NCBI GenBank assembly: GCA_029210965.1
Contig: JARGFZ010000001.1
Span: 124,001-188,000, forward strand
From: a bacterium
Lineage (GTDB): Bacteria > BMS3Abin14
Direction of reading: 5' to 3'
DNA length: 64,000 nucleotides
In this document: piece by piece, positions 54,199 through 57,965 of the stretch
Layout of the letters: each line of letters starts with the position of its first letter
Position numbering within the stretch: position 1 is the first letter of the stretch
The notes under the pieces: model-generated
What the model saw: the letters and a program-made list of their open reading frames with translations, nothing else
Told to the model about the DNA's origin: nothing
Databases searched by the model: none
Program-made: the position numbers and the translations under genes

Positions 54199-55359
54199 CT
54201 ACTCTATTCGGCCGAAAAGCCGGCGCAGAGACTCGGTAACCAGGGCCATGGTTGGATAATCTATATTGAACGCGTTGTCCATGGCCGAATGTCTAATGTA
54301 GTTCGGATAATCAGAATACCACACTGTTCGAACGCCTCTGGAGGCAAAGGGGGTGTGGTTGCTTTTTCCGCTTTTGGAACGAACCTTTTCCACTTTGTGG
54401 CCCATCTCGTCCAGGACTCCGGCAGCCAGGCGAGTCAGCTCTTCGTCCATCACCGCACCTCTATCCCTTGCGATGAGGCAGAGGTTGGGCCATCCCACCG
54501 CGTCCAGGTTAACCATAGCCGCCACCTCCCGCAGCTGATTAGTCCGGTAGAGCTGGTCTGCATAAGTCTCGGCCCCGATACACCCTTCCTCTTCACAATC
54601 GGCAAAGAGATAGCGAACCGGAAGTCCTGCATCTGCATCATAACCGTTTTGAATGTACGCCAGCATGGACGCAACACCCGAAGCATCGTCGCTGGCACCC
54701 GGCGTATGGGGCCTGCTGTCGTAATGGGAGGCGAGAAGTATGTAATGACTGTCAGATACTTCCCGACCTGCCTCAATGTTGCGGCAGCGAATGTTCCGGT
54801 TCCGTGAACGGATGGAAAGGCGGGTCCTTCCCCCCCCAGCCTCCAGAACCCTCTGGGCATCAGACTTGCGGATCGATACCCCCGGAATGGGAGACAGGGA
54901 GTAATCACAGGCACCAGAATATAGTTCATCAATGTAGTCGTTATACCATATGAGTGAAGACGCCCCGCGCATGGCAGCTTCGGAGATCTTTACCGTTTCG
55001 TGGTTCTTCCAGAGCTGGGCAAGGTGAGTGCGCCCATCGGTACCGTCCAGGGAGGCGTAATCCTCATCCCTGGCATGACCCACAGGCAGAATGTCGGCCA
55101 CGAGACTTTTTACGGATGGAGATCCGATTCCGGGCAGGCACTGGACCTTCTCATATCCCTTACCGAAATCGATCTGCAGCAACCACTTCACAGGTACAGT
55201 TATATTGACCGTAAAAGGCTGGACATGGACATGGAGGCCCCAGGTTCTGAGAAGGCCCTTTATCATTCCAAATGCCTTCCTGTGCCCCCTCGATCCGATG
55301 AATCGATCAAGCCCCACCGATGTCAGGCTTTCAATGTAGGTTCTGAGTTCTTTTTCCAT
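54199..55359 (-). CDS. M28 family zinc peptidase
   Basis: A 386-residue metallopeptidase of the aminopeptidase Y/S type. The two-zinc site can be read: His and Asp in LLASHYDSRPH, Asp in GASDDASGVA, Glu in FADCEEEGCIG (also the catalytic Glu), Asp in VNLDAVGWPN and the final His in YPNYIRHSAMDN. A domain inserted before the catalytic part (about 60-190) resembles the PA-like or cap segment of the family. No signal peptide is visible, so it is probably cytoplasmic. ATG at 55359; the stop is followed directly by the GAF membrane protein gene. Substrate unknown. Confidence 0.88.
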   Translation of the reverse strand: MEKELRTYIESLTSVGLDRFIGSRGHRKAFGMIKGLLRTWGLHVHVQPFTVNITVPVKWLLQIDFGKGYEKVQCLPGIGSPSVKSLVADILPVGHARDEDYASLDGTDGRTHLAQLWKNHETVKISEAAMRGASSLIWYNDYIDELYSGACDYSLSPIPGVSIRKSDAQRVLEAGGGRTRLSIRSRNRNIRCRNIEAGREVSDSHYILLASHYDSRPHTPGASDDASGVASMLAYIQNGYDADAGLPVRYLFADCEEEGCIGAETYADQLYRTNQLREVAAMVNLDAVGWPNLCLIARDRGAVMDEELTRLAAGVLDEMGHKVEKVRSKSGKSNHTPFASRGVRTVWYSDYPNYIRHSAMDNAFNIDYPTMALVTESLRRLFGRIE

Positions 55360-55556: not shown

Positions 55557-56150
55557 TCAATATGTATTATCTTCCAATCCATCCTTGAGCCTTTCTATCT
55601 CACTTATCAGCTCCCCCAACTGCTCTTTCATCCGTGTGTCATATTCTGGCGTGAGGGAAAAAGCGGCACGCGCATCCACGGCAGCCTCGTCGTAACGGTG
55701 AAGTTTCATAAGGGTTCTGGTCCTTGTCTCAAGGTAAGGGTACAAAGGGGCAGGATCCATAGCGATGGCCCTGTCCACAAGAGCCAGCGCTCTGTCTGGA
55801 TTATCCTTCTCGAATTCGATCCAGGCCAGGTTATTGAGGATCATGGGATCTTCCCCTCCTGTTTCCAGGGCCTTCTCGAAATAAATCGATGATTTCTTCA
55901 GGTCACCTTTCAACCAGAAAAGCTCACCCAGCATGGCACAGGCCTCGGGCCGTCCTTCCTCCTGGGTAATCGCATCCTCCAGGAGGGGAATGGCCTGATC
56001 CTGTTGTCCTCCCTGAATGTAGATAGAGGCAAGCTGGATCCTGTCCTCATAGGGCATAACAAGGGATTCACGGACAGATACCCCTGCGCACGAGACAACC
56101 GTTATCGCCAGAAAGGCACACATGAAAAACCTGAAGGAGGTCAAGATCAT
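55557..56150 (-). CDS. TPR lipoprotein, partner of the C39-like protein
   Basis: A 197-residue protein with a lipobox (residues 18-21, VVSC) after a hydrophobic N-terminus, then about four TPR-like helix pairs (YEDRIQLASIYIQGGQQDQA, ACAMLGELFWLKGDLKKSSI, ILNNLAWIEFEKDNPDRALA, YLETRTRTLMKLHRYDEAAV). It should be anchored in the envelope. The ATG at 56150 overlaps the stop of the C39-like gene (ATGA). In Pseudomonas PA2778-type proteins, as I recall, the C39 part and TPRs are in one chain; here they appear as two coupled genes. Confidence 0.8.
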   Translation of the reverse strand: MILTSFRFFMCAFLAITVVSCAGVSVRESLVMPYEDRIQLASIYIQGGQQDQAIPLLEDAITQEEGRPEACAMLGELFWLKGDLKKSSIYFEKALETGGEDPMILNNLAWIEFEKDNPDRALALVDRAIAMDPAPLYPYLETRTRTLMKLHRYDEAAVDARAAFSLTPEYDTRMKEQLGELISEIERLKDGLEDNTY

Positions 56151-56701
56151 CCTTCCCTGTGGACAGTGAGCATCCAGAACCCCGACTCGGACCAGAACTT
56201 ATCGAACCGGTCCAGCTTCATCCATGATAGTTTTCCGTCCCCCCAAAGAAGAAAAAATCCGTATGGGTCGGAAGAGTATCCTGTGACAAGGATAAAATGG
56301 CCGGCAGATCCACTGAGACCGTGATATTTGAACAGAACGATAGCCGGGCCGTGATCCCGGAGTTCCTTTACCAGTATTTCTTCAGATCCCTCCAGCTGCC
56401 GGGTTTCAAGACCTCTTCGCCTTGCCTCAAGAAAAAGATCCATAGTCAGGGTCCCCCCGGCTCCGGGGCTGTATAGCTTCTGAACGAGCTGGTCAAGATC
56501 GGCCTTTATCCCGATATTTTCAAGGAGAGCAGCAAGAGCAAAAGGCCCGCACTGTTCAGGTTCCTGCAGATACGGGCCTACGCGATGTATCCGTACGGCC
56601 TCGGGGAGGCGGTGCGGCTCAGTCAACCGGATGGTACACGAGAAAATAAGCGGTACCCAGGCGAATACTGCAGCGAACCATACCCACCTGCCCGATCTCA
56701 C
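56147..56701 (-). CDS. C39-like cysteine peptidase lipoprotein (PA2778 family)
   Basis: A 184-residue lipoprotein with lipobox IFSC (about residues 19-22). The papain-like C39 triad is readable: Cys in EPEQCGPFALAALL (residue 51), His in SAGHFILVTGY and Asp in LLWGDGKLSW. C39 domains cut after double-Gly leaders in bacteriocin exporters; here there is no transporter, and the PA2778 family's role is unknown. The start is GTG at 56701, overlapping the stop of the next gene upstream. Together with its neighbours it forms a three-gene envelope operon. Confidence 0.82.
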   Translation of the reverse strand: MRSGRWVWFAAVFAWVPLIFSCTIRLTEPHRLPEAVRIHRVGPYLQEPEQCGPFALAALLENIGIKADLDQLVQKLYSPGAGGTLTMDLFLEARRRGLETRQLEGSEEILVKELRDHGPAIVLFKYHGLSGSAGHFILVTGYSSDPYGFFLLWGDGKLSWMKLDRFDKFWSESGFWMLTVHREG

Positions 56702-57090
56702 TTGATGGTGATCTCCTTATCCATGAGTTTAAGAATAACAATCACAAGAAGAATGACAACCAGGAGCGTTACGACTCCGTTACCGCCTGCCTGGATCTGG
56801 TCGAGATCTTCCATGACAGCCTGCCTCTCTTCAGGTGTAAGCCCATCCAGTCGCGTCCGGATCTCGTCGGAAGACAGGCCAAGGGATGCGAGCTTTTCGG
56901 TGAGAATGCCTGTTTCCAGCACTTCTCTCACGGTGGCCAGAGTATCGACATCCATACCAGCCAGGGTTTCTTCCGAGGGGGAGATAAAGGCTGCCTGTGC
57001 AGCGGCGGGCAAAATAAAGAGTCCGGAGAGCGTGAAGGCCAGATACCAACAGATCAAACGAACAGCGGGATAACGAAGCATCTTTCTCAT
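56698..57090 (-). CDS. PA2779 family membrane protein
   Basis: A 130-residue protein with an N-terminal signal or anchor segment (CWYLAFTLSGLFILPAAAQA), a small extracytoplasmic part (TLAGMDVDTLATVREVLETG), and a C-terminal membrane segment (GVVTLLVVILLVIVILKLMD). It matches what I know of the PA2779 family, whose genes accompany PA2778-type C39 peptidases. The Gly-Gly-Asn before the last membrane segment (QAGGNGVV) could be a cleavage site for the neighbouring C39 protein; this is inference. Confidence 0.78.
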   Translation of the reverse strand: MRKMLRYPAVRLICWYLAFTLSGLFILPAAAQAAFISPSEETLAGMDVDTLATVREVLETGILTEKLASLGLSSDEIRTRLDGLTPEERQAVMEDLDQIQAGGNGVVTLLVVILLVIVILKLMDKEITIK

Positions 57091-57155: not shown

Positions 57156-57965
57156 TCATCCGTCCATACTACCCGATCGCAGCCCCTCCAGGTCAAGGGT
57201 CACATAACGATAACCCAGAGTCTTCAAGGCCGCAACAAGTCTTTGGCGCCTTACAGTTTCCGTCAGATGACCAACCATCATTTCCGGGACCTCGATCCTG
57301 GCGATGTCGCCGTGTACCCGGAGCCTGAGATCCGCGAGACCTTCTCCTCGCAGGATAGATTCCCCTTCTTTTACCATTTCAATGTCCCTGTCCGTGATGG
57401 GTTGATCGTAGGGGAAGCGGGTTGCGAGACAGGGGGCGGAAGGCTTATCCCATGTTTCAAGGCCATCCGACCTGCTCAAGTCCCGAATCAGCTTCTTGGT
57501 AAGTCCCGCTTCTTTCAAAGGGCTCCTTACACCCAACTCTTCGAGAGCCTGTATACCCGGCCTGTAGCCCTCACCATCGTCCGCGTTGGTACCATCGAGG
57601 AGCCAGGGAATTCCGTTATTATCTGCCAGTTCCCGCAGGTGGGAAAAAATATACTTTTTACAATGGTAGCATCTTGAGGGAGCGTTGCCCGAGACTTCCT
57701 GGATGTGGCGAGGGTCCAGATCGAGACGGTGTGTCGTTTTAACACCCATCCCGCGAGCCAGAGCTATCGCCTCTGAAGCCTCCCCTTCTCTCAGGAGGGG
57801 ATGCTGAACAAAAACGGCAGAAACAGCTTCAGGACCCAGGCTCCGCAGACAAAAATTGAGCAGATAGGTGCTGTCCACCCCCCCAGAATAGGCAACGAGC
57901 ACCCTGCCCATCTCGAGGATAATGGACCGCAGCCTACTGACGGGGACAGCAATTTCAGTCATCAT
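57156..57965 (-). CDS. larE: ATP-dependent sacrificial sulfur transferase LarE
   Basis: LarE adds sulfur to the nickel-pincer cofactor of lactate racemase, giving up its own Cys sulfur. The 269-residue protein has the PP-loop SGGVDST (27-33), the CYHCKKYIF segment and the sacrificial-type Cys in KPSAPCLATRFPY (Cys179). The ATG at 57965 starts (M)MTEIAVPVSRLRS. No larA, larB or larC lies in the window, so it could serve another nickel-pincer enzyme or be a LarE-like PP-loop protein. Its neighbours are not related. Confidence 0.85.
   Translation of the reverse strand: MMTEIAVPVSRLRSIILEMGRVLVAYSGGVDSTYLLNFCLRSLGPEAVSAVFVQHPLLREGEASEAIALARGMGVKTTHRLDLDPRHIQEVSGNAPSRCYHCKKYIFSHLRELADNNGIPWLLDGTNADDGEGYRPGIQALEELGVRSPLKEAGLTKKLIRDLSRSDGLETWDKPSAPCLATRFPYDQPITDRDIEMVKEGESILRGEGLADLRLRVHGDIARIEVPEMMVGHLTETVRRQRLVAALKTLGYRYVTLDLEGLRSGSMDG

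Follow-up and report, generated by a model that had tools for sequence, protein, structure and literature searches.

The locus and its neighbours

The window considered here is the whole stretch of 64,000 nucleotides of bacterial DNA that was analysed, and a module of three genes lies on its minus strand. The first encodes a PA2779-family protein of 130 amino acids (56698..57090, minus strand), the second a PA2778-type C39 peptidase of 184 amino acids that starts with GTG and has neither a TPR nor an ABC part (56147..56701, minus strand), and the third a TPR lipoprotein of 197 amino acids that is a separate gene in the window (55557..56150, minus strand). A sequence-only reading of the window had described these genes as overlapping, and the open reading frames and the sequence itself bear this out, with a GTGA at 56698-56701 and an ATGA at 56147-56150. 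AAGGAG motifs, judged by eye as ribosome sites, precede the starts of the PA2779-family and C39 genes. Outside the module, the upstream neighbour is an ATP-pyrophosphatase-like gene (57156..57965, minus strand), which we take to be LarE-like, and the downstream neighbour is an M28 peptidase gene (54199..55359, minus strand). The ATP-pyrophosphatase-like gene is close to the module at six loci of the window's family and at one locus in each of two other families, and by eye the order Rrf2, ATP-pyrophosphatase, PA2779, C39, TPR and M28 in one relative (G003) matches that of the window. Apart from the TPR gene, no neighbouring family was found at a steady place near the module across many taxonomic families. 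Response-regulator-like genes occur near it in nine families, at scattered places and on both strands, and a recurring set of divergent upstream genes is seen near the module in families f72, f81, f87 and f121. Four relatives are metagenome assemblies; a fifth match (L189) was left out, as no C39 open reading frame was found there.

The PA2779-family protein and its juxtamembrane glycines

The first protein is a member of NF033919 (75.1 bits against a curated cut-off of 40) and also matches DUF6627 (36.4 bits, cut-off 27); in NCBIfam it matches NF033919 and a GspM model at E 0.065, and no others at E up to 1. It is laid out as an apparent signal peptide (an N-terminal hydrophobic stretch, judged by eye), a helical domain, the residues AGG, a C-terminal membrane helix and a short tail. 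The Gly-Gly previously noticed ahead of the C-terminal helix is indeed present as Gly102-Gly103, whose codons (56782..56787, minus strand) mark the C39 cleavage site proposed from conservation, and it is followed by a hydrophobic helix at about residues 105-123 (56722..56778, minus strand; mean hydropathy 3.07).

The glycines were followed through 124 PA2779 open reading frames taken from 140 loci and two plasmid loci. Two of the frames end ahead of the site, and the juxtamembrane pair in the 122 readable proteins is GG in 88, GA in 15, AG in nine, GT in five, GQ in two and GK, SG or GN in one each. Among 65 non-redundant proteins the counts are GG 49, GA 5, AG 5 and six others, and the two positions rank second and fifth of 120 by conservation in the alignment. 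C39 proteases of peptide biosynthesis are described in the consulted part of PMC10885120 as cleaving after GG, GA or GS, a rule that 103 of the 122 pairs obey and that AG, GT, GQ, GK, SG and GN do not; the window protein, with AGG after an amphipathic helix, has the form of a double-glycine C39 substrate. The same part of that source states that ComA recognises an amphipathic helix with hydrophobic residues at -15, -12, -7 and -4. The hydrophobic peaks of 76 PA2779 sequences lie at -15, -12, -8 and -5, so that two agree with ComA and two are shifted by one residue, and more peaks follow upstream.

When the mature part up to the glycines was compared for 76 members with Pfam and NCBIfam at E up to 10, DUF6627 was found in 74 and NF033919 in all 76, and any other family in at most eight. 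A Nif11 leader-peptide match in one of the 76 (E 0.023) was taken as chance. Profile matches to the PDB cover short stretches, the best being 5i8l (E 2.7e-5 over 32 positions), and none of them passes alone. The structure model of the protein is unreliable (pLDDT 48) and places the glycines in a loop between helices. A search of the window's phylum for PA2779-type tails gave nine strong matches, all of them PA2779 proteins; three weak ones (E 0.26-0.58) were taken as chance. The same tail search found no second such protein in the window's genome, where the C39 peptidase and the PA2779 protein thus look like a dedicated pairing. Several variations were observed along the way. Two loci (L062 and L109) carry PA2779 genes duplicated in tandem upstream of one C39 gene, and in family f62 the tail after the membrane helix is about 15 residues longer at six loci (L068-L070, L073, L074 and L078) and without this extension at L066. 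The GN case is a diverged homologue (L148, genome G275) with a Cys- and Asp-rich end, in which Gly-Gly is lost (KGNS); no C39 was found in its genome.

The C39 peptidase and its active site

The second protein scores 35.3 bits against the C39 family PF03412 (cut-off 22) and consists of the C39 domain only, without the fused ABC transporter of a PCAT. It was modelled in five runs, of which the best reached a mean pLDDT of 71.7 and a pTM of 0.73 and the other four a pLDDT of 40.7-53.4. The best model is predicted to have the fold of a double-glycine protease, its closest match being such a protease with leader peptide (6mpz; Z 17.6, rmsd 2.0, 133 aligned positions), followed by ComA (3k8u, Z 16.4); HlyB, a C39-like domain and Alr0975, a phytochelatin synthase, are among the further matches. 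No second C39 was found within the 64-kb window with a PA2778-type C39 profile, a result that bears on a double-glycine exporter only there.

The catalytic triad had been read as intact, and this holds for two of its residues. Cys51 (56549..56551, minus strand) and His135 (56297..56299, minus strand) are present and align with those of ComA, together with the oxyanion-hole residue Gln46 (56564..56566, minus strand), but the catalytic Asp of ComA aligns with Trp153 (56243..56245, minus strand) in a Leu-Trp-Gly-Asp motif, where the nearest Asp is Asp155 (56237..56239, minus strand). Asp155 is invariant in all six members of the window's family, the window included, and may substitute for the triad Asp. 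Loss of the triad in most homologues had been named as evidence against the reading, and among 112 readable relatives in the main set of genomes the outcome is divided: the Cys is kept in all 112, the His in 111 and the Gln in 104, while the triad Asp is found in only six. At its column (116) the relatives have Ser in 69, Thr in 16, Trp in seven, Asp in six, Ala in six, Asn in two and six others; the preceding column (115) is His in 66 and Asn in 25. Another column (51) is acidic in 90% of the family. A third phylum, that of genome G036, has the triad Asp in all five of its C39 domains, within the motif HDP, and hence a full triad. The cost of such a change is indicated by CvaB, where, in the part of PMC3335142 consulted, replacing Asp121 by Ala, Ser or Asn is reported to abolish the secretion of colicin V, and the D121A peptidase to have little activity. 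A C39 domain without the canonical Asp may use a helper residue (Asp155 or the residue at column 51), may work as a Cys-His dyad, or may not cleave.

The address of the enzyme also has to be considered. The window protein has a lipobox-like Cys22 (by eye), and in 84 C39 starts with a loose lipobox the +2 residue is never Asp. In E. coli, lipoproteins with a +2 residue other than Asp go to the outer membrane. By this rule the C39 lipoprotein is predicted at the outer membrane, away from a substrate in the inner membrane. Seven C39 starts in family f62 (L066, L068-L070, L073, L074 and L078) have no lipobox, a feature that would fit an enzyme dissolved in the periplasm. In P. aeruginosa clone CHA, the PA2778 start codon is listed as lost in the consulted part of PMC3697988.

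The split TPR part

The third protein matches several TPR models over cut-off and has a lipobox-like Cys21 (by eye). NF033920, an equivalog model with a cut-off of 150 bits, spans C39 and TPR in 255 positions, which agrees with the earlier statement that the two parts are one chain in Pseudomonas. The C39 gene of the window scores 79.4 bits over positions 3-145 of this model and the TPR gene 22.2 bits over positions 164-255; by sequence the two genes are a split homologue of both halves and not a scoring member. Of 114 C39 domains, 79 are followed by a separate TPR gene and 20 are fused to a TPR part, which makes the split arrangement of the window the commoner state in this sample; three have a long C-terminus without a TPR-profile match, for ten no TPR part was found, and two are at a contig end. 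On a tree of 108 of these domains, built from few columns and with many open forks, four changes are needed to explain the fusions. A single main clade of fused chains contains the plasmid copies of Azoarcus and Eleftheria, and a few fused cases lie elsewhere.

Co-occurrence and linkage

The main set comprises 395 genomes of one phylum, that of genome G034, which differs from the phylum of the window. C39 was counted there with a C39-only profile and a threshold placed in the score gap between 114 and 87 bits. PA2779 is present in 98 genomes and C39 in 99; both occur in 94, PA2779 alone in four, C39 alone in five and neither in 292. The Fisher value computed from these counts carries no correction for common descent of the genomes. 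A consistent co-occurrence of the two families is thus confirmed, with both in 94 of the 103 genomes that have either, unlinked cases included. Contig ends or fragments account for five of the nine exceptions. In G131, G240 and G284 the C39 gene is at a contig start and in G133 the PA2779 gene is at a contig end, so that the missing partner may be cut off, and in G406 PA2779 is immediately followed by a 76-bit C39 fragment. The exceptions left over are G259, G302, G409 and G275. A PA2779-domain profile found no match in G131, G240, G259 and G284 and only one at E 0.046 in G302. In genome G409 no C39 partner was found for a PA2779 protein with AGG, and this weakens the pairing. In the window's phylum, PA2779 and the C39 half occur in the same six of 12 genomes, among the matches listed.

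Linkage was examined in the 140 loci, which comprise the listed PA2779 places of the main set, of the window's phylum and of genome G036 together with 18 separate C39 places; weaker C39 places, such as those in G281, G287 and G298, are left out of this set. A C39 gene lies on the same strand within 4 kb downstream of 96 of the 124 PA2779 frames, at more than 1.4 kb in two of them (L139 and L172). The other 28 have the pairs GG 19, AG 4, GA 1, SG 1 and GN 1, with two cut, and 25 of them are in genomes that have C39 elsewhere, the exceptions being G133, G275 and G409. At one locus (L097) the genes are adjacent in the reversed order C39-TPR-PA2779, and a few other unpaired PA2779 genes are at contig ends. 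Five genomes from three taxonomic families (G130, G164, G342, G380 and G417) keep their only PA2779 and the C39 unlinked, with at least 3.7 kb upstream of C39 free of PA2779; in G164 and G380 the PA2779 gene is itself at a contig end. That both genes are kept without linkage argues for a joint function. The third phylum has PA2779 model matches in six of 80 genomes, and five of these six loci have an adjacent C39 gene and a PA2779-like Gly-Gly before the helix. The sixth has neither a C39 nor a GG protein and is probably a false match. At one locus (L092, G115:C7) PA2779 and TPR genes stand beside a partial C39 gene with a stop codon, and the same genome has a second copy of the module with an open C39 frame.

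Diverged clusters and mobility

Two genomes carry second, diverged clusters (L155, 406-2616 of G213:C77, and L172, 1817-4444 of G101:C64). Their PA2779-like proteins keep VGG with a longer spacer of about ten residues to the helix, and their C39 domains form a subclade of their own. Both clusters also carry a secreted-looking protein of about 180-190 amino acids without a Pfam family, which occurs in two of the 395 genomes, and a methyltransferase of the PEMT/ICMT family. The methyltransferase stands beside a putative C-terminal processing pair, and its family includes carboxyl methylases. A further PEMT-family methyltransferase gene comes after a PA2779 copy that has no C39 (L161, 3944-5016, genome G004).

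The window C39 matched four plasmid records. On the plasmids of Azoarcus KH32C and Eleftheria terrae PA2779 adjoins C39, and these two records, together with the NCBIfam model, are the evidence from Pseudomonadota; the other two matches are LysM-annotated proteins of Deinococcus with about 25% identity. Phage records gave no match to the Azoarcus C39. The module was taken not to be a mobile system.

A proposed mechanism and its alternatives

We propose that the C39 lipoprotein cleaves the PA2779 protein after xGG and releases the helical domain from its membrane anchor while the TPR part serves as a scaffold, and we give this reading an even chance. The PA2779 protein would be exported by its signal peptide and, with the C-terminal helix anchored in the inner membrane, would expose its helical domain to the periplasm. 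By means of Cys-His and the oxyanion Gln, the C39 lipoprotein would grip the amphipathic helix ahead of xGG and cut after the second glycine, so that a protein of about 68 residues ending in -AGG would be freed. The TPR module, separate here and fused elsewhere, would dock the substrate or the protease and is, by analogy with NlpI-Prc, probably a scaffold. The suggestion that Gly-Gly is the site of C39 is strengthened by conservation, by the diverged second pairs and by the third phylum, with the cleavage itself inferred from sequence; of the small processing and sorting system once envisaged, the processing part is plausible. Cleavage is made less certain by the triad Asp, which is mostly Ser or Thr and in the window Trp, since the matching changes inactivate CvaB, by the 19 of 122 juxtamembrane pairs that are neither GG nor GA, and by the predicted outer-membrane address of the C39 lipoprotein.

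Other readings were weighed. In some exporters, degenerate C39-like domains bind but do not cleave their substrate, and the C39 lipoprotein could likewise be a receptor of peptidase-like form that grasps the GG-helix region of PA2779. The canonical Asp is lost in the window and in most main-set relatives, changes of this kind are inactivating in CvaB according to the consulted part of PMC3335142, and the structural matches include HlyB and a C39-like domain. Mere binding, however, would not require the Cys kept in 112 and the His in 111 of 112 relatives, the third-phylum branch retains the full triad, and Asp155 may substitute in the window; we hold binding without cutting to be unlikely. The glycines might also be a structural hinge that joins the helical domain to the membrane helix, with the C39 enzyme acting elsewhere and PA2779 as its anchor, inhibitor or regulator. 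The pairs AG, GT, GQ, GK, SG and GN and the position of the glycines in an inter-helix loop of the low-confidence model would fit such a hinge, whereas the preference for GG and GA is not readily explained by it and the glycines are retained even where the spacer grows to about ten residues (L155 and L172); to us it is an improbable explanation.

Sorting of the C-terminal end has to be weighed beside cleavage. Like a sortase or rhombosortase, the enzyme would form a thioester at the glycine and pass the PA2779 domain to an amine of the envelope, on a lipid, peptidoglycan or a protein. Alr0975, a phytochelatin synthase of C39 fold that is presumably a transpeptidase, is among the structural matches. 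The end of PA2779 is tripartite, with xGG, a helix and a short tail often holding Lys or Arg, and the target gene is usually beside the protease, with extra or relocated copies elsewhere, which recalls the single targets of rhombosortases (PMC3237569, consulted section). There is a precedent in rhombosortase itself, whose substrate ends on a Gly joined to a glycerophosphoethanolamine-containing moiety, as the excerpt of PMC6219818 describes. Against this, only one protein with such a tail was found in the window's genome, the third-phylum proteins stop just past the helix and have no basic tail, and the acceptor is hypothetical; we judge sorting, too, to be improbable. The more specific version, a papain-fold cysteine peptidase that cuts at GG and transfers the C-terminal glycine to an envelope acceptor, has in our view quite a slim chance.

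What the module may mean

The PA2779/C39 pair itself is not new, since NCBIfam names both families after neighbouring genes of P. aeruginosa. A search of the open-access literature found no functional study of PA2778 or PA2779. PA2779 is reported as divergent from PA2780 (bswR) with a spacer of 407 bp (PMC3985676, in the part consulted). For Pseudomonas stutzeri, the consulted part of PMC10155442 lists a PA2779-family gene among 26 strong constitutive promoter candidates chosen by RNA-seq, and describes its promoter as about as strong as a gentamicin-resistance control. The pair is common, PA2779 being present in 98 of the 395 main-set genomes, and together with the measured P. stutzeri promoter this points to a common, apparently expressed envelope process without an assigned function. 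C39 peptidases are known as the parts of exporters that remove double-glycine leaders. In the present module the C39 enzyme is apparently exported, has no transporter and is linked to a membrane protein in which the GG is predicted to lie across the membrane, before a C-terminal anchor; we propose that double-glycine processing has moved to the periplasm and to such an anchor. The three-gene module would then hint at a scarcely studied route by which a protein is cut from the inner membrane. If the sorting version were true, the enzyme would be a separate class beside sortase, exosortase/archaeosortase and rhombosortase/myxosortase.

Comparison with known systems

The nearest known relative is the PA2779/PA2778 pair (NF033919, NF033920, DUF6627), in which the same two families adjoin with PA2779 first; the NF033920 chain joins C39 and TPR, whereas the window has two genes that score below the equivalog cut-off of 150. 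With the C39 domains of ComA, LahT, PCAT1 and CvaB the window enzyme shares the predicted fold, the Cys, His and Gln, and a partner with an amphipathic helix and GG. The exporter domains are cytosolic and come with an ABC transporter, while the window C39 is apparently exported, bears a lipobox and has no transporter; its triad Asp is replaced, and the GG precedes a C-terminal membrane helix, so that cleavage would release the "leader" side as the product. Rhombosortase and GlyGly-CTERM proteins share with the module the GG, the membrane helix, the short C-terminal tail and a protease beside its target, although full-length window PA2779 matched no GlyGly-CTERM model in NCBIfam at E up to 1. 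Rhombosortase is a rhomboid, whereas the window enzyme is a C39 cysteine peptidase with one small protein family as its target. NlpI-Prc, described in the consulted part of PMC5686067 as a TPR lipoprotein working with an envelope protease, has both of these components in common with the module. Prc, however, belongs to the PDZ proteases and breaks its substrate down completely.
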